Assembly: GCF_041381155.1 (NCBI RefSeq)
Contig: NC_091143.1
Location: 23,897,695 to 23,961,694, forward strand
Source: Argopecten irradians
Lineage: Eukaryota > Mollusca > Bivalvia > Pectinida > Pectinidae
Direction of reading: 5' to 3'
Length of the DNA: 64,000 nucleotides
A program made the position numbers and the translations under genes. Under the pieces are notes generated by a model. That model was not told where the DNA came from, ran no database searches, and saw only the letters and a program-made list of their open reading frames with translations. Shown piece after piece: positions 6,099 through 50,410 of the stretch; within the stretch, counting starts at the first letter, position 1, and every line of letters begins with the position of its first letter.

Positions 6099-9000
6099 AT
6101 GAAGCTACACATCGCCATACCAATAGTCTGCCTGGCCTGTCTAGGACAAGGTTAGTTAACTTCTATTGATGAATTCCAAAGCCAATTCTATCTAGATGTG
6201 TACACATAGAAATGTTTTTAGTTAAAAATCTGTAATTGATTTTCACTCGAACTAGTCAAATTATAGACTTTTAATACCACATACGATATGGAGCGAAAAG
6301 AAAACATTTTATGTTAAAAATTTGGATTAGAGGTCAAATATATTTTATACCACACAAATACAATAAGGATAATATAATTTTATTTTTATATGTTTGTTGT
6401 TAAATGTTCATAGCTATTTCAGATACACATCTTAATATTTGGTTAATCTGATGTCTTTGTTAATCTGTAACTATTTGATATTGTATAAATCATCTTTTTA
6501 GTAAATGTTTAAGATTATCTGATCGTTAGAGACATGAAATATGATTTTCAATGCGTTTTTATATGTCTTTTATGTAACCTTATCAAAACATTAAACGATG
6601 CAATAGACGTAATTATTTTTACGTTTTGATTATACATCTGCTATTGCAACAAAATAAAAAGGATCATTCATGTGTGATTTATAAAGTAAGCGATGTTGTT
6701 TCCATAATCAAAAGTTTGCATCTAAAAGTAAATTCAATGCTTACAAATGCATTTCGAGGAGTTTGTGTATTTTCTCAGTCAGTCGAAGTTATACTAATAC
6801 AGTATCATGTATTTGTATCGTAATTCAATAGTGTACACCACCGGTGAAGTAACCATATCCTCAGTAAGTTTCGCCCAGGAACTTGTAAACCAAAAGCAAT
6901 GCACGATAATTATTTATAAATATTTTGATGAACTCTTTATCAAAATTTTAAAATAACGTAACCATTCAATGTTTCTAGTCCTGTCTCAAAGCAGCAACAA
7001 CGACCAATCAACCTTCCAAAGTAGTAATGTACATAATTCAAATCTTATCCAATGGCCCGGTCAACAAATGTCAGCGACAAATTTTGAAATGGGTCCAAAT
7101 GGAGTACAATTAGGCCAAAATAGAGGTTTCCAAGATGAAAGTCAAGGGGCACCTTGGCAAGGAGGTGGAACGAATTTCAACTTACAAGGAGGACCTAACT
7201 GGGGTATGTTTATTGTCTCCTTCCTTCGTTTGCAGTGGTCATTCTTATGTCACCATTTTTACCATTGTACCTTCATTTTGTTCTTGCTCGGAGTAATGAT
7301 TATCTTTTAAAAATGGATACTTTTTGAAAATTCAGATTTTAAGTGAAATCATTTTGATTTTTTCTTCGTTTTTGTTGATTTTAAAGTAGTGTTTCGTTGC
7401 AACTTTCTCTTATGGAAGGTAGAATGAATGAGTTACCATCATGGAGATACTAATACCGATTTTTAGCGGAAGTTAGATTTTCCTCTCAAATGGTAACTTG
7501 CGACAAAAGCAAAATACTTTTCATCGTTTTATTTTCTCCGTTATATTACTAATTGGCTAGAAAGATGTATTTCTCGTTCTACGCTAAGACTGAAATGCTG
7601 TAAGAATACTCACACAGAAGGAATTCTCTTTTTCTTACCAAATTCGACGTTTTAACAGGTTGGCCACAATGGTATCCTTCATGGCAAACGGGTTCTACTC
7701 TCGGTTCCTGGTTTAATACAGGTACAGCTAGCCCTGTAGCCTTCTTTATTATTGAAGCAATGTATAAATCATAATTATATCATTGCAACAAAGCATTTTT
7801 TGTGTTAATAACAATGTGTCATTTTTGTCGTATTGTTATTTTAACATGTGCGTTTTTAAATATCCATGCTATATTCACAATATTTACATCAGTAAGACGG
7901 TCGACTTTATAGCCTATTGGTATTATTAACATGACTAACTGTGATGTTTGCTATTGACTTATTTATCATCCTTATGTTATGTCTATGTTTTACAGCAATA
8001 TTCAAAACGTTCTAAACGGTCTAGGGCTTCGACACTTTATAATATACAAATTATTAGCCACCAATTACTTTATAAAATTAATTAAAAGTCCACTTCCTTT
8101 CCGAAACGACTTTATATTTTTGAATTGGGAATGTAAGACGAGATTGATATTTTGTAGAGTTACAAAGGTCATTAGCTTATTGTTAATACTACACTTATCA
8201 TCACCTTTGGAAAATGTTGTTAAAATAATTCAAACGTTAATTTCATACCGCTGATCGTATAATGTTTTCTGCCGTTGTCCTAATTACCGTGCGTTAACAG
8301 CTGTCACAGCGCCGGACGACAAACCAGCGAAATTCACTTTATATAACTGTCAACATATTTTACTCAAGCAAACTTTGTTTGGTGTTATGACCTCATCTCA
8401 AACTATCTTATAGGATTATCGGTTTTTAAGCTTAATTTTTGTTTCGAAAATGAAGTGGGCCTTATCACAATTAACCATTTAATTTCGATAATAACCAAAT
8501 TATGTTGATTGTTATTAGATCAATACCACAGCGTTCCGTTGCTTTATCTGAGTAGGAACCTGGTCATAGTAACGTTATATAAAAAAAACTACCCTTAAAC
8601 TGAGGAGGTTCTACCTCCTGCATTCCAACTTTTCATAATTGCGTCCGTCAAATAGAGGTTTGTTTAGATCAGTAAGCACTTTGAAAGTAACGCTATCAAT
8701 CGATAACTATCTACATTTTGTTTCTCTCTAAAATCACTATCGCTTTTGCTATTTTTCAATGAGAGGAATAACATCGTATAGCTGGTAATTTTTGCTGATT
8801 AAAAAATCGTATAAGTATAGGTTTGTGTGTATGGGACTAATTCATTGTTCCGCGAAATCGCAAAAATACGGCATTGATGGCAGTTGGCATCTGGTTATAT
8901 ATATGGCATAGTGTTACATGTTTAATATTTAAGTTCGCATCTGTCCGAACTGAAATTAATTATGTTTTCAGTATGTAAATGTCGTGGTGAAACCATTTCA

Positions 9001-12000
9001 TTAGAGGTCAAATCAAATAAAAAAATTTGAAATAGAGATGAAAGACTTGATAGTTTATGTTAAAACAAAGTTAGTAAAGAGCAGTTATTTTCCCCGACGT
9101 ATCGAGTTCCTTACAAAACATATATGGTAGTTATATGACATTACAATGGAGCCTAACCTAAATCATCACTCTCTGTAACACAATAAAAGGAAAACTATGA
9201 TACCATCACATTTTGATGGATGAAAAAATTAGTTGTATACTTTAAATTTATTCCTCAAAACTTTATCATTGTAGGGGGACCAGACAATCAGCCGTGGCAG
9301 ATTAACAACTTTTCCCCAAATGGAGGTAAATAAATATAAAATCATTTTGTAGAATGGAACACATACACTTTATCTTCGTATAAAATTATGTAAGACGTGT
9401 TTGATAAATACTAATATGTTATATATGATGTCATTTTAACTGACTTTCTAATTTTTTTTAAATGTTATTTTCAAAATTACTTAGCATGGTTCTACATTCA
9501 AACAGTTGTCCTGTCCTGTCATCAAGGATATATATGAGAATCAGATTTAGATTTATCTTATACTATAAAGATAATATTGAAGAATATAATAGAACTATAG
9601 ATATTGTATTCCAAGTAGCATTTCCAATATCATTACTATTAACCAGAGTATTTTCGCGTATAATTTTTTTCAACGTATTCACAAATTAACAAATTCCTGA
9701 TCACGGTTTCTTACCTTCAATCGTGCATTTATGTTTTATATTCAATTATATTCGGGTAAAATTCGAATTCGCATTCGAGTTCTTTCACCAAATTTCGAAA
9801 AAATGTAAAAAAAAAAAATGCGAAAATAATGTACATGGATGGTGTAATTATCTATATCTATGCATTATTAATAATCGAAATATTATTCATAATTAAACAA
9901 TGTAAACGAATGTTAAATTAAAAAATTTGAACAATTCCAGGACAAGGTTTTCAGTGGTGGCAGCAATCCCAGGGACCAAACGGCGGTAAGTTACGGTTTT
10001 ATTATCACTGCCATCAAAGGCGATCATAATTATCTATTTGAATGGTAAAGTTCTTCCGTATGTTCAGTTGCGTCTATGATTTATATATTCAGTTTTTCAT
10101 CTTATATAAATGTCTTGGTAAACAAATACACTGAAATTTTCTTTATAAGAAGGATGGATTTATTTATTTATACCTATTCTTTTTATAAAATGTATTCATG
10201 CAATTCTGCTCTTTTAGGTAACTTCCAGCAGAGTAGTTTTAACCACATGATGGGCCCACAGCAATGGAATAATAACAATAATAATAACGGACCTTTCGGT
10301 AGGTAATATTGTGTGTGTATCGTGGTATCGCAAATAACAATGCCATATTACCCTTAGAATTAATGTTTCAGTCACCGATCTTGTTCTGTCTGATGCCATA
10401 TATATCATAATTAAATTTTTAGCTAACTTTTTATATACAACGTTAAGAAAACTAACACTGGAAGCAGTGGCAGTGTTTATTATTTATTTATTTATTTATT
10501 TTATTATTATAATATTTTATTTGCATTTAGTTAGAAACTTTCGAATTGTTTTTACGTTATTAAGTAAGCATCACCATTTAAACACTATAATCAAATAAAT
10601 AAAATCAAACGATCAACTGCCGTCAATGTGTATATATACATTTATAAATTTATAAATATATTATACATTTATAAATGGTAGATATTTGGCGATCAGTAAA
10701 TTATCATAAAATGTTTGTCTACGATTTAAGGTTCACAGTTCGGTGGAAACTTACAGCAAGGATGGTTTTCACAGAACCAGGGAGGATGGCCCAATTCTAT
10801 GGGTTTCAATGGTAAGTGATGATATTATAAGGCTTCAAAGCGAAACAAATTATTTATAATATGTTTTGTTATATTGATTATACGACTAAATCTCAATGAT
10901 TGTCCAATGATAAATATTGTTTATGCTCACACGGTGTGGGGCATCTATAACTTGCCTTTGCATAGTAGAGCATGCATTTTGATTATTATAATAAAGTTGC
11001 GCAATTCAATAAATCTATAATGGTTATTTTATCCAGGAGGAAATGGAAATCCGTCGCAATCATTCGGGTGGAACAGTTTCCAGAATGGTAAGTGAAAAGT
11101 ATATCTCAGAAATTTGCATATAATTCATTTCCACCTAAATCTCATTTTATTTTCGTAATACTTTGTCTGATTTGTCCTGTACACCTTTAATCAGTACAAT
11201 GAATCCGTTCAAATCTCATCGGTCTATTTTGTCCTGTACAAATTATGGATTATATGTACACTGTACAATTTCTAGAGCATTCGTACAAATCTCACCCGGA
11301 CTTTTTTGTCCTGTACAATTTATGGGGTATCTTTACAAATCACACCCGGTCTAATTTGCCCTGTAGAATTTATGAAGTATTCGTACAAATCACACCCGGT
11401 CTAATTTGTTCTGTACAATTCATGGAGTATCCGTATAAATCTTCCCTGGACTAATTTGCCCTGTACAGTATTCGTATCAATCATAACGTGCAATAATCCA
11501 CCTAAATTTAATCTCTACGGCTTGTTGTTTTCTTATAGTAAATAATGCGTTTAAAAATCGAACACGTTCACATAAGTTGTTTTCACTAATATGCAAATTG
11601 AGGATTTTTTTAACGATATGTTTGTTTTGACAGGTCCTTGGCAACAATGGAACAATGGGTTTCAGCAGCAAGGACCATGGAACTCATGGAACTCATGGAA
11701 CAATATGAACAACATGAACAATATGAATAATATGAACTTTAACCCCTGGAACCAATGGAATCAAGGTAACCCCTGGTCAAATGGTAACCAATGGAATCAA
11801 GGTAACCAATGGGGTCCAGGCAATCAATGGGGTCAAGGCAATCAATGGAATCCATGGAATCAAATGAATGGCATGGGACAATGGTCAGGATCAGGTAAAT
11901 AGAGATGTTATGTTGATTTATAAGATAGATTTATTATATTGGTAATCAACGTCCATTTATGGTAATGTAGTTTTGTCTCAAGACTTATTTTTTTCTTAAC

Positions 12001-12174
12001 TCAACTAGACGAGAAGGTTTGGGCCACAAGCTATACCCATTAACCTAATACCTGTGTCGACTTTTTATAGGTATGGCTTTCTCACGGCGGACCAATACAG
12101 TAGAAACAACACGTAATGAATCTCCCTCACAAAACCAACAACAGATGATTGTAGGCTCAGGCCCGAGCTTTTAG
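6099..12174 (+). CDS. secreted Gln/Asn/Gly/Trp-rich low-complexity protein, ten exons
   Basis: Exons at 6099-6150, 6979-7203, 7659-7721, 9275-9325, 9941-9985, 10218-10298, 10731-10811, 11037-11087, 11634-11894 and 12071-12174 join into one frame of about 337 aa ending in TAG. All nine introns are phase 1 with GT-AG ends, so every internal exon is a multiple of three (225, 63, 51, 45, 81, 81, 51 and 261 bases). The first exon gives MKLHIAIPIVCLACLGQ; with VLSQ from the second it forms a signal peptide. The mature chain is rich in Q, N, G and W. The exon at 11634 holds an N-N-M run and about six W-N-Q-G-N-type repeats. The C-terminus is short and charged, with RR. It has no cysteine pattern or known domain. 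It resembles extracellular matrix, silk or adhesive proteins in composition only. An AATAAA follows at 12461. Confidence 0.8.
11165..11475 (+). repeat. about 51-bp tandem repeat in intron 8
   Basis: About six units built on CTGTACAATTTATG, a GTATTCGTACAAAT segment, CACCCGGTCTAATTTG and TCCTG, diverged from one another. The unit is close to 17 codons, so open frames run through it, but no acceptor-donor pair frames it. Confidence 0.75.
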
Positions 12175-12460
12175 GTACAACCGGCACTGCATAACAGCAA
12201 TATCAAGTGTGTGTTCAAGGAATATTTTGTTTATATATTTATTCCATTAAATTATTTCGAAGAAGCTTGTGTTCTTTCATATATTATGAATATTTCAATA
12301 TTTCAATTTATTTACATATAGCCCTATATAGTCAATGGGAGGGGAGTTGCGTTCAAATTAGCGTAATCGCAATGATGTATGAATACGAACGCAGTGCATT
12401 TTCGGACTAATTCTAGTTCACGCTTTGAAGATTTTGCGTCATAACGGATTTCAAAATAAC

Positions 12461-22543: not shown

Positions 22544-22683
22544 GGTAACAATGGTGTTGTGATGTTTTTATATGCTAATAATAATCATATCGTAGGTAGG
22601 TTCGTCGTTTTAAAACAGTTCATAGTAATTGCTTTCAAAGTAGAGCAAATAAACATTTTAGTAATGTATAGTTGTTAACTTCC

Positions 22684-23822
22684 GCAGGTGTAAAAGTTTG
22701 TAAGTTAATGTTTGGAACTTGTTCGCAGGTGTAAATGTTTGTGATTAAATGTTTGGAACTTGTTCGCAGGTGTAAATGTTTGTGATTTAATGTTTGGAAC
22801 TTGTTCGCAGGTGTAAATGTTTGTGATTAAATGTTTGGAACATGTTCGCAGGTGTAAATGTTTGTGATTTAATGTTTGGAACTTGTTCGCAGGTGTAAAT
22901 GTTTGTGATTTAATGTTTGGAACATGTTCGCAGGTGTAAATGTTTGTGATTTAATGTTTGGAACTTGTTCGCAGGTGTAAATGTTTGTGATTTAATGTTT
23001 GGAACATGTTCGCAGGTGTAAATGTTTGTGATTTAATGTTTAGAACTTGTTCGCAGGTGAAAGTGTTTGTGATTTAATTTTGGAACTTGTTCGCAGGTGT
23101 AAATGTTTGTGATTTAATGTTTGGAATATGTTCCCAGGTGTAAATGTTTGGAACATGTTCCCATGTGTAAATGTTTGTGATTTAATGTTTTGAACTTGTT
23201 CGCAGGTGTAAATGTTTGTGATTTAATGTTTGGATGCAGATGTAAATGTTTGTGATTTAATGTTTTGAACTTGTTTGCAGGTGTAAATGTTTGTGATCTA
23301 ATGTTTGGAACTTGTTCGCAGGTGTAAATGTTTGTGATCTAATGTTTGGAACATGTTCCCAGGTGTAAATGTTTGTGATTTAATGTTTGGATGCAGATGT
23401 AAATGTTTGTGATTTAATGTTTGGAACATGTTCGCAGGTGTAAATGTTTGTGATTTAATGTTTGGAACTTGTTTACAGGTGTAAATGTTTGTGATTTAAT
23501 GTTTGGAACTTGTTTGCAAGTGTAAATGTTTGTGATTTAATGTTTGGAACTTGTTCGCAAGTGTAAATGTTTGTGATTTAATGTTTGGAACTTGTTTGCA
23601 AGTGTAAATGTTTGTGATTTAATGTTTGGAACTTGTTTACAGGTGTAAATGTTTGTGATTTAATGTTTGGAACTTGTTCGCAAGTGTAAATGTTTGTGAT
23701 TTAATGTTTGGAACTTGTTTGCAAGTGTAAATGTTTGTGATTTAATGTTTGGAACTTGTTCACAGGTGTAAATGTTTGTGATTTAATGTTTGGAACATGT
23801 TCACAGGTGTAAATGTTTGTCA
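22684..23822 (+). repeat. 41-bp minisatellite, about 27 units
   Basis: The unit starts GCAGGTGTAAATGTTTGTGA and continues with TTTAATGTTTGGAACTTGTTC. Variants alternate AACTTG with AACATG and TTCGCAGG with TTTGCAAG, and a few short units (as at 23235 and 23390) lack about half. Each junction reads TTCGCAGGTGTAA, which resembles an acceptor and a donor back to back. Confidence 0.95.
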
Positions 23823-25149
23823 TTCGTACGACAGGCTATAATATGTAAAACCATGATTTTCATAAATTTCGCTAATTTAGATGGATCCGCGAATTTATTC
23901 AATTATAGTAGAATATGTGTAGGTCAACTGTTTCGTGAATATGTACTTTTAAGGAATTATATTCTCACTGTTAATTGTCGTGTAAATACTTAATAAAACT
24001 ACGAATTCGTCAATTGAAAAGGCAAAGCAAGTCAGAACCCTCAAATAATAAATCGACTATTTTGAAAATTAGAAACAAAGAAGACCAATCTGACAGTGTT
24101 TTTTTTCCAAATGATACAGATATACAACTGATTTAAGTCATCAACATCTTCTGTCAGTTATGTATTTGTACCTATGTGTGTCCCAAAATTACCATACAAT
24201 ACACATATGTAGGTCATATATCAAGAGAGAGACGCCGTTACAAGGTAAGTGACGTCAAACCTGTCATATGAAGACGGCGAATCAATGGCGCCATCACTTG
24301 CCGCGTCGTGATAGGTTTCAGTGCTACCTCTGTTCAAGGTTCAGTTGTAGCATTGTGATGATTTTGGCACGGACAAGAGAGGATGGTTTTGTGGTCAACA
24401 TATACTTCTTAAACTAAAAAACAAAGAAGGGCCACTGTGTATTAGGTCAAATGTTAGGAAACGCAAAAACAATACACATATATATGAGATTACCACAGAA
24501 AGACCGGGCGTCATTTTGATCGCAGTATGTAAACATTACTACACGCAGTTGCTAATCTCAAGCATATATAGCGGGAAAGACCATAACCAAACCCCGATAT
24601 TTAACTATAACATTTATTTTTGGCTATCAACTTTTTCGCCTTTTCAGTGTACTCGTGTTAATTACAGGTGTTACGGCTGTTTACCTTCGGGTCCTTTGTG
24701 ACGGTATACTGAGTTAGACAGTATATATTAGTTAACCAATGTTAATTAGACTGTATGTGGATGAAAATGAAAAAGTTCACAAAACATTAAACTATTATTA
24801 CATTTCTAATAACATTGACTAGATAGGCTTATAATAATAAAAAAACTATAACAAAAAATAAACTTTTCAAAAATGTATATTCCATCAATTATCTCGTCTT
24901 TCGTCGTGATATTACGATATATAATTAGCGTCACTTGTCATCAGCCATTACCATTTGCTATTGTTCGAATTTTACCTTGATTTGTAAAGTTGGTATCGCT
25001 GCGACCTATATTGGTATAGTGGGTGTTGTTGACCTAGGTTCGTTTAGCTGGTGTCGCTGTGACCTAGATTTGTATAGCCAGTGAAACAAAGATCAAAGGC
25101 TTAATCCCCAAATTATTTTACTTTGGAGAATCATTATAAACATACATCT
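23823..25149. other. non-coding stretch with a small three-unit repeat
   Basis: A G/C-richer patch at 24230-24350 (GACGCCGTTACAAGGTAAGT, GGCGCCATCACTTGCCGCGT) could be an old promoter or exon, but no frame supports it. At 24985-25085 about 38 bases, TTGGTATCGCTGCGACCTA-like, occur three times with divergence. Confidence 0.4.
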
Positions 25150-26228
25150 TTACATGTTTTTTTTTTTTTAATTTGTTCTGTTAACTGATTTTGGTTAAAG
25201 ATGCTCAACCGCTGACAGAGCATAAATGACACTGATCTAAACGTACAACTTTTCTTTTTTTTTTAATTTGTTCTGTTAACTGATTTTGGTTAAAGATGCT
25301 CCACCGTCGACAGAGCATAAATGACACTGATCTAAACGTACAACTTTTCTTTTTTTTTTAATTTGTTCTGTTTAACTGATTTTGGTTAAAGATGCTCCAC
25401 CGCCGACAGAGCATAAATGACACTGATCTAAAACATACAACTTTTCTTTTTTTTTTAATTTGTTCTGTTTAACTAATTTTGGTTAAAGATGCTCCACCGC
25501 CGACAGAGCATAAATGACACTGATCTAAACATACAATTTTTCTTTTTTTTTAATTTGTTCTGTTTAACTGATTTTGGTTAAAGATGCTCCACCGCCGACA
25601 GAGCATAAATGACACTGATCTAAACATACAATTTTTCTTTTTTTTTAAATTTGTTCTGTTTAACTAATTTTGGTTAAAGATGCCTCCACCGCCGACAGAG
25701 CATAAATGACACTGATCTAAACGTACAACTTTTCTTCTTTTTTTTTTTAATTTGTTCTGTTTAACTAATTTTGGTTAAAGATGCTCCACCGCCGACAGAG
25801 CATAAATGACACTGATCTAAACGTACAACTTTTCTTCTTCTTTTTTTTTTTTTAATTTGTTCTGTTTAACTAATTTTGGTTAAAGATGCTCCACCGCCGA
25901 CAGAGCATAAATGACACTGATCTAAACGTACAACTTTTCATGTCTTTTTTTTAATTTGTTCTGTTTAACTAATTTTGGTTAAAGATGCTCCACCGTCGAC
26001 AGAGCATAAATGACACTGATCTAAACGTACAACTTTTCTTCTTTTTTTTTTAATTTGTTCTGTTTAACTAATTTTGGTTAAAGATGCTCCACCGCCGACA
26101 GAGCATAAATGACACTGATCTAAACGTACAACTTTTCATGTTTTTTTTTTTTTAATTTGTTCTGTTAACTGATTTTGGTTAAAGATGCTCAACCGCTGAC
26201 CGAGCATAAATGACACTGATCATTTGAA
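25150..26228 (+). repeat. about 96-bp tandem array, eleven units
   Basis: Each unit has a T run of 8-14, AATTTGTTCTGTTAACTGAT, TTTGGTTAAAGATGCTCCAC, CGCCGACAGAGCATAAATGA and CACTGATCTAAACGTACAAC. The first and last units carry AACCGCTGAC, the inner ones CACCGCCGAC, so the edges are most alike. The last unit runs without a break into the rest of dispersed family C. Confidence 0.95.
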
Positions 26229-27049: not shown

Positions 27050-29062
27050 GTATTATCTGCTTTACTATCGACATCTTAAGTAACAATACCGCGACGACAC
27101 CTGTCCAACTAAAGTTAAGTGACAATACCGTGACTACACCTGTCCCACAACTCTAGGTTAAACTAAAGTTAAGTAACAATACCGCGACGACACCTGTCCC
27201 ACAACTCTAGGTTAAACTAAAGTTAAGTAACAATACCGCAACAACATCTGGATCACAACTCTAAGTTAAACTAAAGTTAAGTAACAATACCGTGACGACA
27301 TCTGGCCACAACTCTAGGTTAAACTAAAGTTAAGTAACAATACCGCGACGACACCTGTCCCACAACTCTAGGTTAAACTAAAGTTAAGTAACAATACCGC
27401 AACGACACCTGTCCAACAACTCTAGGTTAAACTTAAGTTAAGTAACAATACCGTGACGACACCTGTCCAACAACACTAGGTTAAACTAAAGTTAAGTAAC
27501 AATACCGTGACGACATCTGTCCTACAACTCTAGGTTAAACTAAAGTTAAGTAACAATACCGTGACGACACCTGTCCAACTAAAGTTAAGTAACAATACCG
27601 TGACTACACCTGTCCAACAACACTAGGTTAAACTAAAGTTAAGTAACAATACCGTGACGACACCTGTCCCACAACTCTAGGTTAAACTAAAGTTAAGTAA
27701 CAATACCGTGACGACACCTGTCCAACTAAAGTTAAGTAACAATACCGTGACTACACCTGTCCAACAACACTAGGTTAAACTAAAGTTAAGTAACAATACC
27801 GTGACGACATCTGGCCACACCTCTAGGTTAAACTAAAGTTAAGTAACAATACCGTGACGACACCTGTCCAACTAAAGTTAAGTAACAATACCGTGACGAC
27901 ACCTGTCCACAACTCTAGGTTAAACTAAAGTTAAGTAACAATACCGCGACGACACCTGTCCCACAACTCTAGGTTAAACTAAAGTCAAGTAACAATACCG
28001 CGACGACACCTGTCCCACAACTCTAGGTTAAACTAAAGTTAAGTAACAATACCGCGACAACACCTGTCCCGAATATCTAAGTCAAATCAAACTTAAGTAA
28101 CAGTACCACGACAGCATCTGTTCCACATACATGTATCTAGGGGAAATCAAACTTAAGTAACAATAACGCGAAGACACCTATCCCACATATCTAGGTCAAA
28201 TCAAACTCAAGGTATAATACTGCGACGACACCTGTCCCACCCACATATCTAGGTCAAATCAAACTAAGCTATAATACTGCGACGACACCTGTCCCACATA
28301 TCTAGTTCAAATCAAACTTAAGGTACAATACCGCGACGACACATGTTTCACGAATCTAGGTCAAATCAAACTCAAGATACAACACTGCGACGACACCTGT
28401 CCTACCTATTAATGTCAAATCAAACTTAAGTAACAATAACGCGAAGACACCTATCCCACATATCTTGGTCAAATCAAACTCAAGGTATAATACTGCGACG
28501 ACACCTGTCCCACATATCTAGTTCAAATCAAACTTAAGGTACAATACCGCGACGACACCTGTCCCACATATCTAGGTCAAATCAAACTCAAGATACAATA
28601 CCGCGACGACACCTGTCCACACATTTCTAGGTCAAATCAAACTTCAGGTACAATACCGCGACGACACCTGTCCCTTAAATCTAGGTCAAATCAAGCTTAA
28701 GAAACAATACCACGACGACACCTGTCCCACATATCTAGGTCAAATCAAACTTAAGTACAATACCGCGACGACACCTGTCCCACATATCTAGGTCAAATCA
28801 AACTTAAGTACAATACCGCGACGGCACCTGTCCCACATATCTAGGTCAAATCAAACTTAAGCAACAACGCGACGACACCTGTCCACACATTTCTAGGTCA
28901 AATCAAACTTAAGGTACAATACCGCGACGACACCTGTCCCTTAAATCTAGGTCAAATCAAGCTTAAGAAACAAATACCGCGACGACACCTGACCCACATA
29001 TGTAGGTCAAATCAAACTTAAGTACAATACCGCGACGACACCTGACACACATATGTAGGTCA
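27050..29062 (+). repeat. 54-bp minisatellite in two subfamilies, about 38 units
   Basis: The core AACAATACCGCGACGACACC then TGTCC is shared by all units. To about 28070 the linker is CACAACTCTAGGTTAAACTA plus AAGTTAAGT; from there on it is CACATATCTAGGTCAAATCA plus AACTTAAG. The left block also holds short units in which TGTCCAACTAAAGTTAAG skips the CTCTAGG part. The plus strand is A/C-rich. Confidence 0.95.
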
Positions 29063-29658
29063 AATATAACGAGAAACATAATTATTGCTTTTATCTTCGT
29101 AAATAGAATAACTCCAATCGTTTTATATCCGTCTTCTTATAAGTTACCATCATCGTCCGTCCCTGATCATCCTATATCATTACCATCCATTCTTTTTCAC
29201 CACCACTACCATCATCATCGTCACGACCATTACGTCATCATCATCACTTTGCATTTATCATCAATACCACAATCAACATTGTTTTTATTTTCAGTGTCAA
29301 AATCGATTCTTCTCCTCACCATCGTCCTTATTTATTTTTATCTTTTATTCATACACACTATGGGAAATATCGCTGGAGGTTGCAGTTACACATAGTAATA
29401 GTTTATTTCCACTGTTTTCAATCATGATTACATTTTTTTTTACATTTACTCTTTTCCCCAGTACTTATGTATTGAGGACATATCTTTACCCGTGCTCGCG
29501 ATCGAAATATCGTTCTTTTATTTTAATCAAATCCAGTTTCTTTTTTCAGTCCAACAGGATGGTGCTTGATTTCTCAATATTAAAGATACCAGAGAGACAA
29601 ACTTAAAAACTGAATGATAACACTTTACACGATACGCTCAATATCTTTATTTTACATC
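29063..29658. other. non-coding spacer with CAT/ATC-rich simple sequence
   Basis: CATCATCGTC-type simple sequence at 29150-29260. No gene is supported. Confidence 0.45.
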
Positions 29659-33328: not shown

Positions 33329-36300
33329 TCATTTACCAACATGCTTTCCACCCTGTTATAAAAAGAAATATCCTTATAATCACTCCTAAATTAACATGTA
33401 AATTACTAAACTTACTATCTTATATATATTCATTTCTCAATAAAACTGTTATATACATTACTAGACCCAAGTTTCAGAAATTTTCCTCAATAAGAAATAT
33501 TTCTACAAATAATCATTACTAAATCGAAAGCTTTCAATATTTTTTCCTTAAATATTTCAAATATTTTTACAGGAAAACATCATCAAGAAGTTAGATCATG
33601 TTGTGAATGGTTGTCATACAACATCAAGATAATGCAATACAAAAACATAAAAGCAGTACATAACTGTACCAACCTTTTGTTTATCTATTTCAGCTTTGAG
33701 GGTGTGGACCTTGGACCTCTCTTTCTCCAGCTCGGCTGTGAGACTTGTTACCTGTTCTGTCAATTCGTCTCTCACCTCACCTAGCTGGTTAACCTGCATC
33801 AGCACCTCTGCCTTGTCTTTCACTGTAATAATGAAGATATTTATATATATCAAACTCTGTGATATATCAATTCATTTAATCCATTTTACTTTTTCCAATT
33901 GATTTCAGGTCATTTTAAAGGATAAACAAATTTATACAATACTGCAAAAGTAAATTAAAATCAAAATCACAACTATCATATTGAATATTTTTTCATATTG
34001 TATAGTGTATGTCTAAGCGAACTTCCTGTTACATTTAACATTTCCGTATTAAACCCAGTAAGCGACCTAGGGTGCTTAATAGAACCAAATAGAAGATAGC
34101 CTTTCAGAAAATTATTGCATGAAGTAAGCCATAAAGCAATTTAAAAAAAAATTCAAATACAGAAATTTTTGTTAAAATGTTTTCATATTTTAACTTTGCA
34201 TTTAATTCAAGGTCAGTGAAATTGAGACCACTTATATAAGGGGGAGAAGGCTAATAGGGAGGAGGGAGCCACTTATATAAGGGGCAGAAGGCTTATAGGG
34301 AGGGGAGAGCCACTTATATAAGGGAGAGAAGGCTTATAGGGAGGGGAGAGCCACTTATATAAGGGGGAGAAGGCTTATAGGGAGGGGAGAGCCACTTATA
34401 TAAGGGGGAGAAGGCTTATAGGGAGGGGAGAACCACTTATATAAGGGGGAGAAGGCTTATAGGGAGGGGAGAGCCACTTATATAAGGGGGAGAAGGCTTA
34501 TAGGGAGGGGAGAGCCACTTATATAAGGGGGAGAAGGCTTATAGGGAGGGGAGAGCCACTTATATAAGGGGGAGAAGGCTTATAGGGAGGGGAGAGCCAC
34601 TTATATAAGGGGGAGAAGGCTTATAGGGAGGGGAGAGCCACTTATATAAGGGGGAGAAGGCTTATAGGGAGGGGAGAGCCACTTATATAAGGGGGAGAAG
34701 ACTAATAGGGAGGGGAGAACCACTTATATCAGGGGGAAAAGGCTTATAGGGAGGGGAGAACCACTTATATAAGGGGGAGAAGGCTTATAGGGAGGGGGAG
34801 AGCCACTTATATAAGGAGGAGAAGACTTATAGGAAGGGGAGAGCCACTTATATAAGGGGGAGAAGGCTTATAGGGAGGGGAGAGCCACTTATATAAGGGG
34901 GAGAAGGCTTATAGGGAGGGGAGAGCCACTTATATAAGGGGGAGAAGGCTTATAGGGAGGGGAGAGCCACTTATATAAGGGGGAGAAGGCTTATAGGGAG
35001 GGGAGAGCCACTTAAATAAGGGGGAGAAGACTTATAGGGAGGGGAGAGCCACTTATAGAGGATGGAGAAGGCTTATAGGGAGAGGGAGAACCACTTATAT
35101 AAGGGGGAGAAGGCTTATAGGGAGGGGAGAGCCACTTATATAAGGGGGAGAAGGCTTATAGGGAGGGGAGAGCCACTTATATAAGGGGGAGAAGGCTTAT
35201 AGGGAGGGGAGAGCCACTTATATAAGGGGGAGAAGGCTTATAGGGAGGGGAGAGCCACTTATATAAGGGGGAGAAGGCTAATAGGGAGGGGGAGAGCCAC
35301 TTATATAAGGGGGAGAAGCTTATAGGGAGGGGAGAGCCACTTATATAAGGGGGAGAAGGCTTATAGGGAGGGGAGAGCCACTTATATAAGGGGGAGAAGG
35401 CTTATAGGGAGGGGAGAGCCACTTATATAAGGGGGGAGAGAAGGCTTTATAGGCTTAAAGGGAGTGAGAGCCACTTATATAAGGGGAAGAAGGCTTATAG
35501 GGAGGGGAGAGCCACTTATATAAGGGGGAGAAGGCTTATAGGGAGGGGAGAGCCACTTATATAAGGGGGAAAAGGCTTATAGGGAGAGAGAAGCCACTTA
35601 TATAGGGGAGAAGGCTTATAGGAGGGGAGAGCCACTTATATAAGGGGGAAGGAGAAGGCTTATAGGAGGGGAGGGGAGAGCCACTTATATAAGGGGGAGA
35701 AGGCTTATAGGAAGGGGAGAGCCACTTATATAAGGGGGAGAAGGCTTATAGGAAGGGAAGCCACTTTATAAGGGGGAGAAGGCTTATAGGGGGGAGAGCC
35801 ACTTATATAAGGGGGAGAAGGCTTATAGGGAGGGGAGAGCCACTTATATAAGGGGGAGAAGGCTTATAGGGAGGGGAGAGCCACTTATATAAGGGGGAGA
35901 AGGCTTATAGGGAGGGGAGAGCCACTTATATAAGGGGGAGAAGGCTTATAGGGAGGGGAGAGCCACTTATATAAGGGGGAGAAGGCTTATAGGGAGGGGA
36001 GAGCCACTTATATAAGGGGGAGAAGGCTTATAGGGAGGGGAGAGCCACTTATATAAGGGGGAGAAGGCTTATAGGGAGGGGAGAGCCACTTATATAAGGG
36101 GGAGAAGGCTTATAGGGAGGGGAGAGCCACTTATATAAGGAGGAGAAGGCTTATAGGGAGGGGAGAGCCACTTATATAAGGGGGAGAAGGGCTTATAGGG
36201 AGGGGAGAGCCACTTATATAAGGGGGAGAAGGCTTATAGGGAGGGGAGAGCCACTTATATAAGGGGGAGAAGGCTTTATAGGAAGGGGAGAGCCACTTAT

Positions 36301-39300
36301 ATAAGGGGGAGAAGGCTTATAGGAAGGGGAGAGCCACTTATATAAGGGGGAGAAGGCTTTATAGGGAGGGGAGAGCCACTTATATAAAGGGGGAGAAGGC
36401 TTATAGGAAGGGAGAGCCACTTATATAAGGGGGGGGGGAAGGCTATATAGGGGGAGGGGGGAGAGCCACTTATATAAGGGGAGAAGGCTTATAGAAAGGG
36501 GAGAGCCACTTAAATAAGGGGGAGAAGGCTTATAGGGAGGGGAGAGCCACTTATATAAGGGGGAGAAGGCTTATAGGGAGGGGAGAGCCACTTATATAAG
36601 GGGGAGAAGGCTTATAGGAGGGGAGAGCCACTTATAAGGGGAGAAAGGCTTATAGGAAGGGGAGAGCCACTTATATAAGGGGGAGAAGGCTTATAGGGAG
36701 TGGGAGAGCCACTTATATATAAGGGGGAGAAGACTTATAGGAAGGGAGAGAGCCACTTATATAAGGGGGAGAAGGCTTATAGGAAGGGGAGAGCCACTTA
36801 TATAAGGGGGAGAAGGCTTATAGGAAGGGAGAGCCACTTATATAAGGGGAGAAGCTTATAGGAGGGGAGAGCCACTTATATAAGAAGGGGAGAAAGGCTT
36901 ATAGGGGGGAGGGGAGAAGCCACTTATATAAGGGGGAGAAGGCTTATAGGAGGGGAGAGCCACTTATATAAGGGGGAGAAGGCTTATAGGGAGGGGAGAG
37001 CCACTTATATAAGGGATAGGGGGGAGAAGCCACTATATTATAGGGAGGGGAGAGAGCCACTTATAGAGGATGGAGAGAAGGCTTATAGGGAGGGGAGAGC
37101 CACTTATATAAGGGGGAGAAGGCTTATAGGGAAGGGAGAGCCACTTATATAAGGGGGAGAAGGCTTATAGAAGGGGAGAGCCACTTAAATAAGGGGGGGA
37201 GAAGACTTATAGGAAGGGGAGAGCCACTTATAGAGGATGGAGAAGGCTTATAGGGAGGGGAGAGCCACTTATATAAGGGGGAGAAGGCTAATAGGGAGGG
37301 GGAGAACCACTTATATAAGGGGGAGAAGGCTTATAGGGAGGGGAGAGCCACTTATATAAGGGGGAGAAGGCTTATAGGGAGGGGAGAGCCACTTATATAA
37401 GGGGGAGAAGGCTTATAGGGAGGGGAGAGCCACTTATATAAGGGGGAGAAGACTTATAGGAAGGGGAGAGCCACACTTAAATAAGGGGAGAAGGCTTATA
37501 GGAAGGGGGAGAAGCCACTTATATAAGGGGAGGAAGGCTTATAGGAAGGGGAGAGCCACTTATATAAGGGGGAGAAGCTTATAGAAAGGGGAGAGCCACT
37601 TAAATAAGGGGGAGAAGGCTTATAGGGGGGAGAGCCACTTATAGAGGATGGAGAAGGCTTATAGGGAGAGGAGAGCCACTTATATAAGGGGGGATAGGGC
37701 TTATAGGAGGGAGAGAGCCACTTATATAAGGGGGAGAAGGCTTATAGGAAGGGGAGAGCCACTTATATAAGGGGGAGAAGACTTATAGGAAGGGGAGAGC
37801 CACTTATAGAGGATTGGGAGAAGGCTTATAGGGAGGGGAGAGCCACTTATATAAGGGGGAGAAGACTTATAGGAAGGGGAGAGCCACTTATATAAGGGGG
37901 AGAAGGCTTATAGGAAGGGGAGAGCCACTTAAATAAGGGGGAGAAGACTTATAGGGAAGGGGAGAGCCACTTATAGAGGATGGAGAAGGCTTATAGGGAG
38001 GGAGAGAGCCACTTATATAAGGGGGAGAAGACTTATAGGGAGGGGAGAGCCACTTATATAAAGGGGAGAAGGCTTATAGGGAAGGGGAGAGCCACTTAAA
38101 TAAGGGGGAGAAGACTTATAGGAAGGGGAGAGCCACTTATATAAGGGAGAAGGATTATAGGTAGGGGAGAGCCACTTATATATAGGGGGAGAAGGGAGGG
38201 GAGAGCCACTTATATAAGGGGGAGAAGGCTTATAGGGAGGGGAGAGCCACTTATATAAGGGGGAGGAAGACTTATAGGATCTTAGGAGGGGAGAGATGGA
38301 GAGCCACTTATATAAGGGGAGAAGGCTTATAGGAAGGGGGAGAGCCACTTAAATAAGGGGGAGAAGGCTTATAGGAAGGGGAGAGCCACTTATATAAGGG
38401 GGAGAAGGCTTATAGGAAGGGGAGAGCCACTTATATATAAGGGGAGAAGGCTTATAGGGAGGGGAGAGCCACTTATATAAGGGGAGAAGGCTTATAGGTG
38501 AGGGGAGAGCCACTTATATAAGGGGGAGAAGGCTTATAGGGAGGGGGAGAGCCACTTATATAAGGGGGAGAAGGCTTATAGAAAGGGGAGAGCCACTTAA
38601 ATAAGGGGGAGAAGGCTTATAGGAAGGGGAGAGCCACTTATATAAGGGGGAGAAGGCTTATAGGGAAGGGGAGAGCCACTTATATAAGGGGGATAAGGCT
38701 TATAGGGAGGGAGAGAGCCACTTATATAAGGGGGAGAAGGCTTATATAGGGGGAAGATTATAGGAGGGGAGAGCCACTTATAATAAGGGGGGAGAAGGAC
38801 TTATAGGAAGGGGAGAGCCACTTATAATAAGGGAGAAGGCTTATAGGAAGGGGAGAGCCACTTATATAAGGGGGAGAAGGCTTATAGAAGGGGAGAGCCA
38901 CTTATATAAGGGGGAGAAGGCTTATAGGAAGGGGAGAGCCACTTATATAAGGGGGAGAAGACTTATAGGAAGGGGAGAGCCACTTTATAAGAGGAGCTTA
39001 TAGAAGAGACCACTTATAGGGAGGGGAGAGAGCCACTTATATAAGGGGGAGAAGACTTATAGGAAGGGGAGAGCCACTTATATAAGGGGGAGAAGGCTTA
39101 TAGGGAAGGGGAGAGCCACTTAAATAAGGGGGAGAAGGCTTATAGGAAGGGGAGAGCCACTTATATAGGAGGGGGAGAAGGCTTATAGGAGGGGAGAGCC
39201 ACTTATATAAGGGGGGGAGGAGGGAAGCCACTTAATAAGGGGAAAGGCTTATAGGGAGGGGAGAGCCACTATATAAGGGGGAGAAGGCTTATAGGAAGGG

Positions 39301-42300
39301 AGAGCCACTTATATAAGGGGAGAAGGCTTATAGGAAGGGGAGAGCCACTTATATAAGGGGGAGAAGGCTTATAGGAAGGGGAGAGCCACTTATATAAGGG
39401 GGAGAAGGCTTTATAGGGCTAAGGGGAGAGCCACTTAAATAAGGGGGAGAAGGCTTATAGGAAGGGGAGAGCCACTTATATAAGGGGATAGAAGGCTTAT
39501 AGGGAGGGGGGAGAGCCACTTATATAAGGGGGAGAAGGCTTATAGGGAGGGGAGAGCCACTTATATAAGGGGGAGAAGGCTTATAGGGAGGGGAGAGCCA
39601 CTTATATAAGGGGGAGAAGGCTTATAGGGAGGGGGAGAGCCACTTATATAAGGGGAGAAGGCTTATAGGAAGGGAGAGCCACTTATATAAGGGGGAGAAG
39701 GCTTATAGGAGGGGGAGAGCCACTTATATAAGGGGGAGAAGGGCTTATAGGAAGGGGAGAGCCACTTATATAAGGGGGAGAAGACTTATAGGAAGGGGAG
39801 AGCCACTATATAAGGGGGAGAAGGCTTATAGGAAGGGGAGAGCCACTTTATAAGGGGGAGAAGGCTTATAGGGGAGAGCCACTTATATAAGGGGGAGAAG
39901 GCTTATAGGGAGGGAGAGCCACTTATATAGGGGGAGAAGACTTATAGGAAGGGGAGAGAGCCACTTATAGAGGATGGGGGAGAAGGCTTATAGGGAGGGA
40001 GAGAGCCACTTATATAAGGGGGAGAGGGCTTATAGGGAGGGGAGAGCCACTTATATAAGGGGGAGAAGGCTTATAGGGAGGGGAGAGCCACTTATATAAG
40101 GGGGAGAAGACTTATAGGAAGGGGAGAGCCACTTAAATAAGGGGGAGAAGGCTTATAGGAAGGGGAGAGCCACTTTTATAAGGGGGAGAAGGCTTATAGG
40201 AAGGGGAGAGCCACTTATATAAGGGGGAGAAGGCTTATAGGAGGGAGGGGAGAGCCACTTATAGAGGGGGAGAAGGCTTATAGGGAGGGGAGAGCCACTT
40301 ATATAAGGGGGACAGGGCTTATAGGGAGGGGAGAGCCACTTATATAAGGGGGAGAAGACTTATAGGAAGGGAGAGCCACTTAATAAGGGGGGAGAAGGCT
40401 TATAGGAAGGGGAGAGCCACTTATATAAGGGGGAGAAGGCTTATAGGAAGGGGAGAGCCACTTATATAAGGGGGAGAAGGCTTATAGGAAAGGGGAGAGC
40501 CACTTAAATAAGGGGGAGAAGGCTTATAGGGAGGGAGAGCCACTTATAGAGGATGGAGAAGGCTTATAGGGAGGGAGAGCCACTTATATAAGGGGGATAG
40601 GGCTTATAGGGAGGGGAGAGAGCCACTTATATAAGGGGGAGAAGGCTTATAGAAGGGGGAAGACACTTATAGAAGGGGGAGAAGACTTATAGGAAGGGAG
40701 AGCCACTTAAATAAGGGGGAGAAGGCTTATAGGAAGGGGAGAGCCACTTAATATAAGGGGGAGAAGGCTTATAGGAAGGGGAGAGCCACTTATATAAGGG
40801 GGAGAAGGCTTATAGAAAGGGGAGAGCCACTTAAATAAGGGGGAGAAGGCTTATAGGAGGGGAGAGCCACACTTATAGGGGAGAGCCACTTAATAAGGGG
40901 GAGAAGGCTTATAGGGGAGGGGAGAGAGCCACTTATATAAGGGGGAGAGGGCTTATAGGAAGGGAGAGAGCCACTTATATAAGGGGGAGAAGACTTATAG
41001 GAAGGGGAGAGCCACTTATATAAGGGGGGAGAAGGCTTATAGGAGGAGGGGAGAGCCACTTATATAAGGGGGAGAAGGCTTATAGGAAGGGGAGAGCCAC
41101 TTATATAAGGGGGAGAAGGCTTATAGGAAGGGGAGAGCCACTTATATAAGGGGGAGAAGGCTTATAGGAGGGGGGAGAGCCACTTATATAAGGGGGAGAA
41201 GGCTTATAGGAAGGGGAGAGCCACTTATATAAGGGGGAGAAAACTTATAGGAAGGGGAGAGCCACTTATATAAGGGGGAGAAGGCTTATAGGGAGGGGAG
41301 AGCCACTTATATAAGGGGGAGAAGAACTTATAGGAAGGGGAGAGCCACTTATAAGGGGGAGGGCTTATAGGAAGGGGAGAGCCACTTATATAAGGGGGAG
41401 AAGGACTTATAGGGGAGAAGGCTTATAGGGAGGGGAGAGCCACTTATATAAGGGGGAGAGGGCTTATAGGGAGGGGAGAGCCACTTATATAAGGGGGAGA
41501 AGGCTTATAGGGAGGGGAGAGCCACTTATATAAGGGGGAGAAGACTTATAGGAAGGGGAGAGCCACTTAAATAAGGGGGAGAAGGCTTATAGGAAGGGGA
41601 GAGCCACTTATATAAGGGGGAGAAGGCTTATAGGAAGGGGAGAGCCACTTATATAAGGGGGAGAAGGCTTATAGAAGGGGAGAGCCACTTAAATAAGGGG
41701 GAGAAGGCTTATAGGGAGGGGAGAGCCACTTATAGAGGATGGAGAAGGCTTATAGGGAGGGGAGAGCCACTTATATAAGGGGGATAGGGCTTATAGGGAG
41801 GGGAGAGAGCCACTTATATAAGGGGGAGAAGGCTTATAGGAAGGGGAGAGCCACTTATATAAGGGGGAGAAGACTTATAGGAAGGGGAGAGCCACTTAAA
41901 TAAGGGGGAGAAGGCTTATAGGAAGGGGAGAGCCACTTATATAAGGGGGAGAAGGCTTATAGGAAGGGGAGAGCCACTTATATAACGGAGAGAAGGCTTA
42001 TAGGTAGGGGAGAGCCACTTAAATAAGGGGGAGAAGACTTATAGGAAAGGGGAGAGCCACTTATATAAGGGGGAGAAGGCTTATAGGAAGGGAGAGCCAC
42101 TTATATAAGGAAGAGAAGGCTTATAGGAAGGGGATAGACACTTATATAAGGGAGAGAAGGCTTATAGGTAGGGGAGAGCCACTTAAATAAGGGGGAGAAG
42201 ACTTATAGGAAGGGGAGAGCCACTTATATAAGGGGAGAAGGCTTATAGGGAGGGGAGAGCCACTTATATAAGGGGGAGAAGGCTTATAGGGAGGGGAGGA

Positions 42301-49039: not shown

Positions 49040-50410
49040 ATGGCTGATGAAATAAACTTGATAACTACTGCCCAGGCAGGATTCAGGAAAAAACAACTGA
49101 CAAAATTTTTATTCTACATATTCTAACTTCTATCTATTTCTCACTTGGTAAACTATTGTTTTGCTCGTTTGTTGATTTTAGAAAAGCATATGATTCAGTT
49201 TGGAGACTCGGTTTATGGCAAAAAGTTCAAAGAAGCAATATAACCTGGAAAATGTTTACAGCAATAATTATTTTATATGAAAATACAAAATCCTGTGTCA
49301 AAAATGGAAATGATGTATCTTATATGTTTACTTGTAACGTCGGTGTAAAGCAAGGAGAAAATTTGTCACCCTTCCTATTCGCTATTTTTCTTCATGATAT
49401 TGAAAGTTTTTTGAAGAGTATGATGTCAATTGTATGGAATATATATAAAACTATTTGTAATTCTTTATGCAGATGATACAGTTCTAATGGCTGAATCAGC
49501 TAACGATCTACAGTCAGCCTTGAATAAATTTGAAATGTATAATGAAAATCAGAAACTTGAAGTAAAGACAAATAAGACAAAAATTGTTATTTTTTTTAAA
49601 GAGGAAGCCACGAACTCATCCTCATTTTACATTATTTAACAAAGAGATTGTTGCTTACAAGAAATTAAGAAACATCCCTCTTCCTATTGATCTCCAGTTA
49701 AAAGTAAATAATTTCATTGTTTTACCAAAATTGTTGTACTCAGTAGAAGTATGGGGTCATTAAAGTATTACAGCTACAGAAAAGCTTCATTTACAGTTTT
49801 GTAAACGTATACTCGGTGTTAGGAAAGGTACGTGTAATTACATGGTATATGGTGAATTAGAGAGATTCCATCACTATAGATAGGTTAAAAACATAATAAT
49901 TATGTTTTGGCACAAATTGATTTCTACTGATAATCGTTCAAGTAATATATTTAAGTTGATGTTAATCTTACAAACAAATAATATTATGGAATTCAAATGA
50001 ATGCATAATGTTAAAAATATTTTTGAAGAAACTGTTTTGAATTATATATGGGACTACCAGAATGTAAGAGAATATTTAAAATCTATCGTAAAACAAAGAT
50101 TACAAGATCAATTTGTACAAAAATGATTTAATGATATAGAGAATTCATCATGAAGTCATTCTATTTTTAAAAGTTATTTTGAATTTGAAAAATATCTCGT
50201 GAAATTAAAGCCAATAGATAGGCAAATAATCATAAAATTCAGAACCTCTAACATGCATATACCTATAGAAATTGGAAGATGGACTGGGACCCCTGAAGTA
50301 AATAGAACTTCCGGGGCGAAGTCTCTTAAAAGATCAATTTGTTTATATTTCTTAGCGAGACAATTAATTCATTTTTTTATGTTACACAACAATGTGCCGA
50401 TGGTGTGAAC
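49040..50410 (+). mobile_element. decayed LINE (non-LTR retrotransposon) reverse transcriptase
   Basis: The conserved RT blocks appear in order: TAQAGFRK near 49070, FVDFRKAYDSVWR at 49166, GVKQGENLSPFLFAIFLHDI near 49350, and YADDTVLMAES at 49466 carrying the catalytic YADD. Downstream the thumb and C-terminal portion is recognisable: LPKLLYSVEVWG near 49740 and FRTSNMHIPIEIGRW near 50230. The reading frame shifts just before YADD (after about 49450) and there are stops at about 49760, 49880 and 50000, so it cannot make protein. No endonuclease domain is visible; the copy is 5'-truncated, as is usual for LINEs. The clade cannot be fixed by eye. Confidence 0.85.

Follow-up and report, generated by a model that had tools for sequence, protein, structure and literature searches.

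A stretch of 64,000 nucleotides (the window) was found to hold what looks like an animal protein-coding gene, a candidate of ten exons on the plus strand at positions 6099..12174. When joined across introns that begin with GT and end with AG, the exons give 337 codons followed by a TAG stop. Exon 1 (6099..6150) includes the start codon and most of a putative leader (MKLHIAIPIVCLACLGQ), and ends in a phase-1 donor that outscored all 355 decoys. Eight internal exons follow, each of phase 1-1 and a multiple of three nucleotides in length: exon 2 (6979..7203, 225 nt), which has a weak acceptor, encodes the end of the leader (VLS) and the start of the mature chain (QSSNND...); exon 3 (7659..7721, 63 nt) encodes GWPQWYPSWQTGSTLGSWFNT, with four Trp among 21 residues, and has the weakest of the nine donors; exons 4 (9275..9325) and 5 (9941..9985) measure 51 and 45 nt, respectively; exon 6 (10218..10298, 81 nt) contains a run of seven Asn; exon 7 (10731..10811, 81 nt) has a weak acceptor; exon 8 (11037..11087, 51 nt) has the acceptor CAGGAG, of the tandem NAGNAG type; and exon 9 (11634..11894, 261 nt) encodes the main W/N/Q repeat block, with 14 Trp in 87 residues. 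Exon 10 (12071..12174) supplies a C-terminal tail free of Trp (GMAFSRRTNTVETTR...GPSF) and the stop. On the same strand, an ATTAAA at 12246..12251, the first base of which is the 72nd after the stop, is a possible polyadenylation signal by motif match only; three more poly(A)-type motifs lie 287-330 bases 3′ of the stop. The gene may also have an additional non-coding 5′ exon.

An earlier note had described this layout as nine introns all of phase 1, separating mostly tiny, glycine-started exons that can be removed or added without shifting frame. Cumulative exon length (mod 3 = 1 at each of the nine junctions) places every intron in phase 1, six of the eight internal exons are 45-81 nt long, and the freedom to remove or add exons is true as anatomy, all eight internal exons being symmetric. 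The glycine start holds for eight of the nine downstream exons, where the intron splits a Gly codon, and fails for exon 2, which opens with a split Val codon. Six of the eight internal exons have lengths divisible by 9 nt (P 0.02 in a post hoc test). GC content is 0.40-0.58 in the exons vs 0.25-0.33 in the introns.

The exon calls were compared with intronic sequence by use of generic splice matrices, with each internal exon removed from its own composition model before scoring (leave-one-out). Candidates were drawn from 6160-12070 (3,745 AG..GT stretches of 30-300 nt, with 1,440 open readings in any phase), and those overlapping the exons were excluded. None of the intronic candidates matched the score of any of the eight internal exons; the lowest true internal exon scored 20.4 vs -5.7 for the best intronic candidate, for which all exons were used in training. 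No candidate for a further exon hidden within the introns came near the scores of the real exons, and no other plus-strand exon of similar composition rose above threshold in the 64-kb window. Seven of the nine donors scored above all 355 decoys, while that of exon 3 was equalled or beaten by 14 of 355. For seven of the nine acceptors, the number of decoys with as high a score did not exceed 7 of 256, compared with 48 of 256 for exon 2 and 59 of 256 for exon 7. The top-scoring form of exon 2 in the whole-window scan starts at 6995, which is out of frame; only 6979 is in frame with exon 1.

Composition of the predicted protein

The predicted precursor (337 residues, 37.8 kDa) is 18.6% Asn, 15.4% Gln, 15.4% Gly, and 8.3% Trp, such that N+G+Q account for 49%. 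By reading, a putative hydrophobic leader precedes Q21 and carries V-x-S as a cleavage motif. The resulting predicted mature chain of 317 residues is near-neutral, with 36% Asn+Gln, 28 Trp, 19 Phe, one Tyr, no Cys, and no Lys, its charged residues including only four Arg and two His. The threshold for prion-like (Q/N-rich) proteins is at least 30 Q/N per 80 residues, and this density was reached in 152 of 258 windows of 80 residues (maximum 41), in keeping with the prion-like look remarked upon previously. Spacings of 3, 6, and 9 residues between Trp were enriched (6, 6, and 5 occurrences vs about 2.3 in shuffles); the period of three is attributed to the 9-nt repeats of exon 9, which has tandem repeats of 9 and 18 nt. 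Aromatic residues overall were barely more even than in shuffles (199 of 2,000 as even). Codon differences among five repeat units fell 12, 18, and 24 times at positions 1, 2, and 3, respectively, only a mild sign of protein-level selection. Six WxxW motifs, the consensus for C-mannosylation, occur in the chain. The exon 9 block was the only part submitted to structure prediction, from the single sequence, and gave a mean pLDDT of 51.4 with no helix of four and no strand of three residues; this low value is weak evidence for disorder of that block.

Pfam, NCBIfam, and PDB returned no match to the protein. In its skewed, repeat-bearing composition and its lack of a folded domain, the product agrees with secreted repetitive low-complexity structural proteins, a functional class rather than a homologous family. 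Relatives were not found elsewhere: (i) after masking of the gene, no tblastn match to its exons in the window had an E-value better than about 20; and (ii) a 128-residue query (exons 2-5 of the 337-residue protein) had no pattern match in viral contigs and seven pattern-matching stretches in prokaryote genomes, none of which was confirmed. Rfam at gathering scores gave no match across the whole window.

Origin of the phase-1 layout

Phase 1 has been reported as the commonest intron class in genes of signal-peptide proteins, and AG|G sites in phase 1 are glycine codons. Within the coding sequence, 23 of 25 AGG sites and 52 of 100 GG sites lie in phase 1. The probability of nine out of nine phase-1 introns is 0.47 under a strict AG|G proto-splice model vs 0.003 under a G|G model. 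When exon-side preferences were weighted softly, the probability was 0.0008, falling to 0.0004 once the observed sites were left out. Insertion at strict AG|G proto-splice sites was rejected as a full explanation, as only three of the nine junctions are AG|G and the softer model gives such a low value; for these same reasons, composition explains part, not all, of the layout. The earlier view of the all-phase-1 layout as remarkable is thus tempered, since this phase is favoured in signal-peptide and glycine-rich genes, while the soft null, at about 1 in 1,000, keeps some of its force. The uniform phase is partly expected of glycine-rich secreted proteins, and other secreted proteins are already known to have gene layouts of this kind.

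Exon duplication as the origin was not supported by similarity between exons. Among 28 exon pairs compared, none was clearly related; for the best pair (exons 6 and 7), 2 of 100 codon shuffles were as good at the DNA level and 14 of 100 at the protein level. Residues 76-165 (exons 2 to 6) did match exon 9 at an E-value of 4.7e-5 and 28.7% identity, calculated without composition correction, which we read as probable shared composition, although an old duplication followed by divergence may also account for it. No exon coincides with a recognisable mobile domain in Pfam, as would be expected of a class 1-1 exon-shuffled modular protein.

The layout resembles that of the tropoelastin gene, in which many small in-frame exons of phase 1-1, with glycine codons split at their borders, encode a low-complexity secreted chain; here all eight internal exons are 1-1 and eight of nine introns fall in Gly codons. 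The likeness is one of gene layout only, not of homology; the present gene has neither Lys cross-linking exons nor Val/Pro/Ala hydrophobic repeats. In elastin-like proteins, segments that bear Lys for cross-linking alternate with hydrophobic segments, whereas the mature chain has no Lys.

Discussion

We consider, with a probability of about 0.68, that the gene encodes a structural component of some extracellular material, be it a coat, the matrix of a shell or periostracum, a thread, or mucus, and that this product is secreted, intrinsically disordered, and of low complexity, an estimate that includes the phase-1 origin and cohesive mechanism outlined here. The secreted, structural character proposed earlier is favoured because the chain has what reads as a leader with V-x-S, is dense in Q/N, matches no domain, and gave a low-confidence fold for exon 9. 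The glycine-split phase-1 exons would stem from the phase-1 bias of glycine-rich secreted genes and/or from 1-1 exons that were duplicated and then diverged. After leader removal, the near-neutral chain would be held together by Trp/Phe "stickers" set in a background of Gly/Asn/Gln/Ser and by side-chain hydrogen bonds, and may form a gel, film, or condensate without DOPA, dityrosine, lysines of its own, or disulfides. We infer this sticker mechanism from composition, on which cross-linking of the chain through its own Tyr, Lys, or Cys was also rejected (one Tyr, no Lys, and no Cys in the mature chain). Counting against this reading, the chain, being Lys-free and nearly Tyr-free, is missing what the majority of known adhesives and tanned sheets of molluscs depend on. 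Exon skipping is possible and could tune the number of stickers, with exon 7 a candidate because of its weak acceptor; the 9-nt repeats of exon 9 could also slip and so alter chain length. A bolder version appears unlikely, namely that the material hardens with no links made by DOPA, dityrosine, lysine, or cystine and is held by Trp stickers (perhaps C-mannosylated at the six WxxW) on Asn/Gln/Gly, with skipping of symmetric phase-1 micro-cassettes tuning their number; the protein would then parallel the prion-like condensate proteins found inside cells, while being secreted and splice-tunable.

The protein may instead belong to a family that has been described before among the shell, ligament, foot, or byssal proteins of molluscs, a prospect of somewhat less than even odds that overlaps with our preferred reading, as the product would still be secreted and structural but not new. 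Gly-, Gln-, or Trp-rich low-complexity secreted proteins are known in molluscs; Pinctada insoluble proteins bear Met- and Gln-rich regions, and the shematrin-like proteins of the zebra mussel cannot be aligned to pearl-oyster shematrins. A study of Lymnaea stagnalis (PMC6007483) describes mantle genes that were chosen by their sequence, not by proteomics, and whose secreted low-complexity products are Gly-rich, as well as tissue-dependent splicing in most shell-forming candidates. There, the repetitive low-complexity (RLCD) shell-forming Lstag-sfc-6, -7, and -8 are secreted, low-complexity, and rich in glycine and asparagine, as is predicted for the present protein, and were undetected by the proteomics used and absent from the other biomineralising proteomes compared in that study; however, they have a basic, Tyr-rich composition in which the Gly-flanked Tyr would suit dityrosine links, in contrast to the single Tyr, lack of Lys, 28 Trp, and near-neutral charge found here (PMC6007483). 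High Trp is shared with secreted byssal proteins of dreissenids, reaching 9.1% in Dbfp10-alpha, 13.0% in Dbfp14-alpha, and 13.6% in Dbfp16 of the quagga mussel, but Dbfp14 and Dbfp16 are Cys-rich and of 5.3-6.6 kDa, compared with a 37.8-kDa precursor and a Cys-free mature chain (PMC6474901). Among these described proteins, most of those with a stated composition have abundant Tyr, Cys, Arg, or Glu/Asp, the Pinctada ligament proteins being noted only as Met-rich, and abundant Tyr, as in Gly/Tyr-rich tanned proteins of the periostracal or DOPA byssal type, is at odds with one Tyr in 317 mature residues. A literature search with eleven short peptide strings from the protein likewise returned nothing relevant, only an opsin antibody peptide and foam panels.

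Less likely is a non-structural secreted product in which Trp would do the binding, such as a sperm or egg protein, the precursor of an antimicrobial, or a factor that binds chitin; Trp-richness is common among binding peptides and the WxxW motifs are compatible with this role, yet the mature chain has few cationic residues, a single RR near the C terminus with, by reading, no dibasic-flanked peptide blocks, and no domain in Pfam or NCBIfam. An intracellular prion-like protein of the RNA-granule type, with a leader by chance, would suit the Q/N density but is improbable given the hydrophobic N-terminus with V-x-S, an intron of phase 1 close to the putative cleavage site, as is typical of secreted proteins, and the lack of an RNA-binding domain in Pfam. 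That gene finding strung unrelated open stretches together is barely credible: exons 3, 4, 5, 7, and 8 (five of eight internal) have more than one open frame, and two of the acceptors and one of the donors score weakly, but the leave-one-out scores, the seven donors above all decoys, and the exon-intron difference in GC all speak against it.

The interesting part of this probable structural matrix or coating protein is its chemistry, Trp-rich and free of Lys and Cys. Tintinnidorin, a self-assembling extracellular shell protein of tintinnid ciliates, is likewise Trp-rich with Cys absent or rare, but is built of six modules of fixed 78-residue length plus linkers, which are not seen here, and its 3.5-4.7% Trp, described as much above known proteinaceous biomaterials, compares with 8.3% in the present protein (PMC13408134). 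This 8.3% extends over 300 residues, whereas the Trp-rich dreissenid foot proteins are of a few kDa. The precursor would yield six tryptic pieces (2, 64, 243, 1, 8, and 19 residues), and since only two are of convenient size, routine proteomics would have trouble detecting the protein, a difficulty that may partly account for the lack of reports on such proteins. The chain is without the residues on which the wet adhesives and tanned sheets known best rely; if it is a matrix protein, another route to cohesion would therefore be needed.

Structure of and support for the W-rich gene

The W-rich gene, which is predicted to encode a secreted, low-complexity protein rich in Q, N, G, and W, was read from the sequence as ten exons on the + strand (6099-12174), joined by GT..AG introns in a single frame of 337 codons. 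This reading confirmed the coordinates and nine phase-1 introns proposed in an earlier note: all nine introns cut after codon base 1, and the eight internal exons (225, 63, 51, 45, 81, 81, 51, and 261 nt) are each a multiple of three in length. The split codon was a GGN glycine at eight of the nine introns; at intron 1, close to where the leader ends, it was a valine codon. The claim that the exons start with glycine therefore failed for exon 2. Internal exons were then compared with all AG..GT stretches of 30-300 nt in 6160-12070, in three phases each, based on approximate splice matrices and an amino-acid composition model trained on the remaining exons alone. By this leave-one-out analysis, no candidate clear of the exons equaled the true exon in any of the eight cases; the lowest true internal exon scored 20.4 versus -5.7 for the best intronic candidate, the latter scored after training on all exons. 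Seven of the nine donors outscored all 355 decoys, while for exons 3 and 6 the donor was equaled by 14 and 4 decoys, respectively; weak acceptors were found at exon 2 (equaled by 48 of 256 decoys) and exon 7 (59 of 256). A scan of the whole window, covering 13,076 open candidates on one strand and 14,197 on the other, was trained on the W-rich gene exons and is therefore circular for them. The + strand had eight non-overlapping stretches above threshold, all within the W-rich gene; the - strand had seven, the best of which scored 11.6 versus 18.9 for the weakest true exon. For exon 2, the scan favored a start at 6995 over the modeled 6979, a form that would break the frame after exon 1. Only the modeled frame is open in exons 2, 6, and 9, and exons 3, 4, 5, 7, and 8 are open in additional frames. 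An ATTAAA motif begins at the 72nd base 3′ of the stop codon, and no TATA[AT]A motif was detected in the 599 nt upstream. Overall, the gene model is well supported in silico and, glycine at exon 2 aside, the earlier description is correct.

Origin of the uniform intron phase

Phase 1 is the commonest intron class of genes for signal-peptide proteins, with phase-1 introns clustering at the signal cleavage site, and an AG|G proto-splice site in phase 1 corresponds to a glycine codon, according to three reports (PMC1626468, PMC8001218, PMC7259759). In the W-rich coding sequence, phase 1 accounts for 23 of the 25 AGG sites and 52 of the 100 GG sites. If introns were inserted only at AG|G, nine of nine would fall in phase 1 about half the time (P = 0.47), but AG|G junctions were found at only three of the nine introns. 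The probability was 0.003 for insertion at G|G sites and ~0.0008 with a softer weighting of the exon-side bases (0.0004 with the observed sites removed). Furthermore, eight of nine introns lie inside glycine codons, which account for 52 of the 337 codons (binomial P = 2.5e-6). Composition therefore explains only part of the uniform phase, and the remainder would fit either duplication of 1-1 exons (exons flanked by two phase-1 introns) or the phase-1 preference already known for secreted genes. No clear similarity was detected among the 28 exon pairs compared; the best, exons 6 and 7, was matched by 2 of 100 codon shuffles when compared as DNA and by 14 of 100 when compared as protein. A tblastn match of residues 76-165 to exon 9 (E-value 4.7e-5, composition correction off) is most simply attributed to shared composition. 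Exon duplication, if any, would be old.

Composition and predicted fold of the protein

The leader, MKLHIAIPIVCLACLGQVLS, is followed by a mature chain judged by eye to start at QSSNND. Its 317 residues include 28 Trp, 19 Phe, 4 Arg, 7 acidic residues, and a single Tyr, with no Cys or Lys, and Asn plus Gln make up 36%. The Q/N density is prion-like: of the 258 80-residue windows, 152 reach the threshold of 30 Q/N. Exon 9 (11634-11894) holds 14 of the 28 Trp, or 16.1% of its 87 residues, many within W-N-Q triplets that track 9- and 18-nt tandem repeats. Along the mature chain, W-W distances of 3, 6, and 9 are overrepresented, and the protein has six WxxW motifs, a count reached in 37 of 2,000 shuffles. 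Five GNxW units differ at codon positions 1, 2, and 3 by 12, 18, and 24 changes, respectively, a mild third-position excess. Single-sequence folding of the exon 9 block (86 residues) gave a mean pLDDT of 51.4 and no secondary-structure element, and a search for domains or relatives of the protein in Pfam, NCBIfam, and PDB returned no match.

Other features of the window

Within intron 3 of the W-rich gene, a ~215-nt stretch (8085-8296) is inverted and 77% identical to window bases 18-233, the pair being a likely interspersed repeat; intron 8 carries about four copies of a 50-nt tandem repeat (11261-11467). On the - strand, a second gene (21637-19441) also has a secretion-like leader, MVYMKEVLVVLTVLIAITTAVE. 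Next comes a 702-nt exon (21318-20617) that is Arg/Asp/Pro-rich and contains several RR sites along with DFLP/LLPG motifs, followed by a 43-nt exon (19483-19441). Introns 1 and 2 are phase 1; intron 3, if real, is phase 2, with a stop reached shortly after. This gene had no match in Pfam or NCBIfam. Tandem arrays were found at 22683-23824 (41-nt unit), 25160-26221 (95-nt unit), and 27103-29064 (54-nt unit), along with an 8.6-kb minisatellite of ~209 copies of a 41-nt unit (34224-42836) with open frames on both strands. The latter is flanked by two - strand coding-looking pieces, 33614-33871 (a coiled coil by appearance) and 46069-46317, both with weak, below-cut-off family matches, which may be parts of one gene. 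The + strand also encodes a reverse transcriptase fragment (49051-49476; RVT_1, 1.7e-10), by reading probably of non-LTR type, and a linker histone H1 in a single open frame (59747-60313; Pfam Linker_histone, 4e-28).

Relationship to known systems and proposed mechanism

The layout of the W-rich gene is ordinary for a glycine-rich secreted protein, and the chemistry of its product is unusual. The tropoelastin gene has a similar layout. In Lymnaea, three mantle genes (sfc-6 to -8 in one section of the source, -7 to -9 in its methods) encode secreted glycine-rich low-complexity proteins and were picked from sequence rather than proteomics; these proteins are Tyr-rich and basic, whereas the W-rich protein is neither (PMC6007483). 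The same source describes apparent between-tissue splicing differences for most shell-forming candidates, and differential exon use is noted for some pearl-oyster biomineralization genes (PMC6366105). High Trp contents are given for quagga-mussel Dbfp14-alpha (13.0%) and Dbfp16 (13.6%); unlike the W-rich protein, both are Cys-rich, and they are small (5.3-6.6 kDa) (PMC6474901). Tintinnidorin contains 3.5-4.7% Trp, a share described as far above that of known proteinaceous biomaterials (PMC13408134), and Pinctada insoluble shell proteins are described as having Met-rich regions, with Gln-rich ones in some (PMC7591529).

Since the mature chain has no Lys, no Cys, and one Tyr, it would form hardly any DOPA, dityrosine, lysine-derived, or disulfide self-links. 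Cohesion would most likely come from Trp and Phe contacts plus Asn/Gln side-chain bonding, giving a gel, film, or condensate; transglutaminase might also join its glutamines to lysines on a partner. The W-rich protein may be splice-tunable, with Trp residues as stickers: each of the eight symmetric exons could in principle be skipped, which would alter chain length, as may slippage in the exon 9 repeats.
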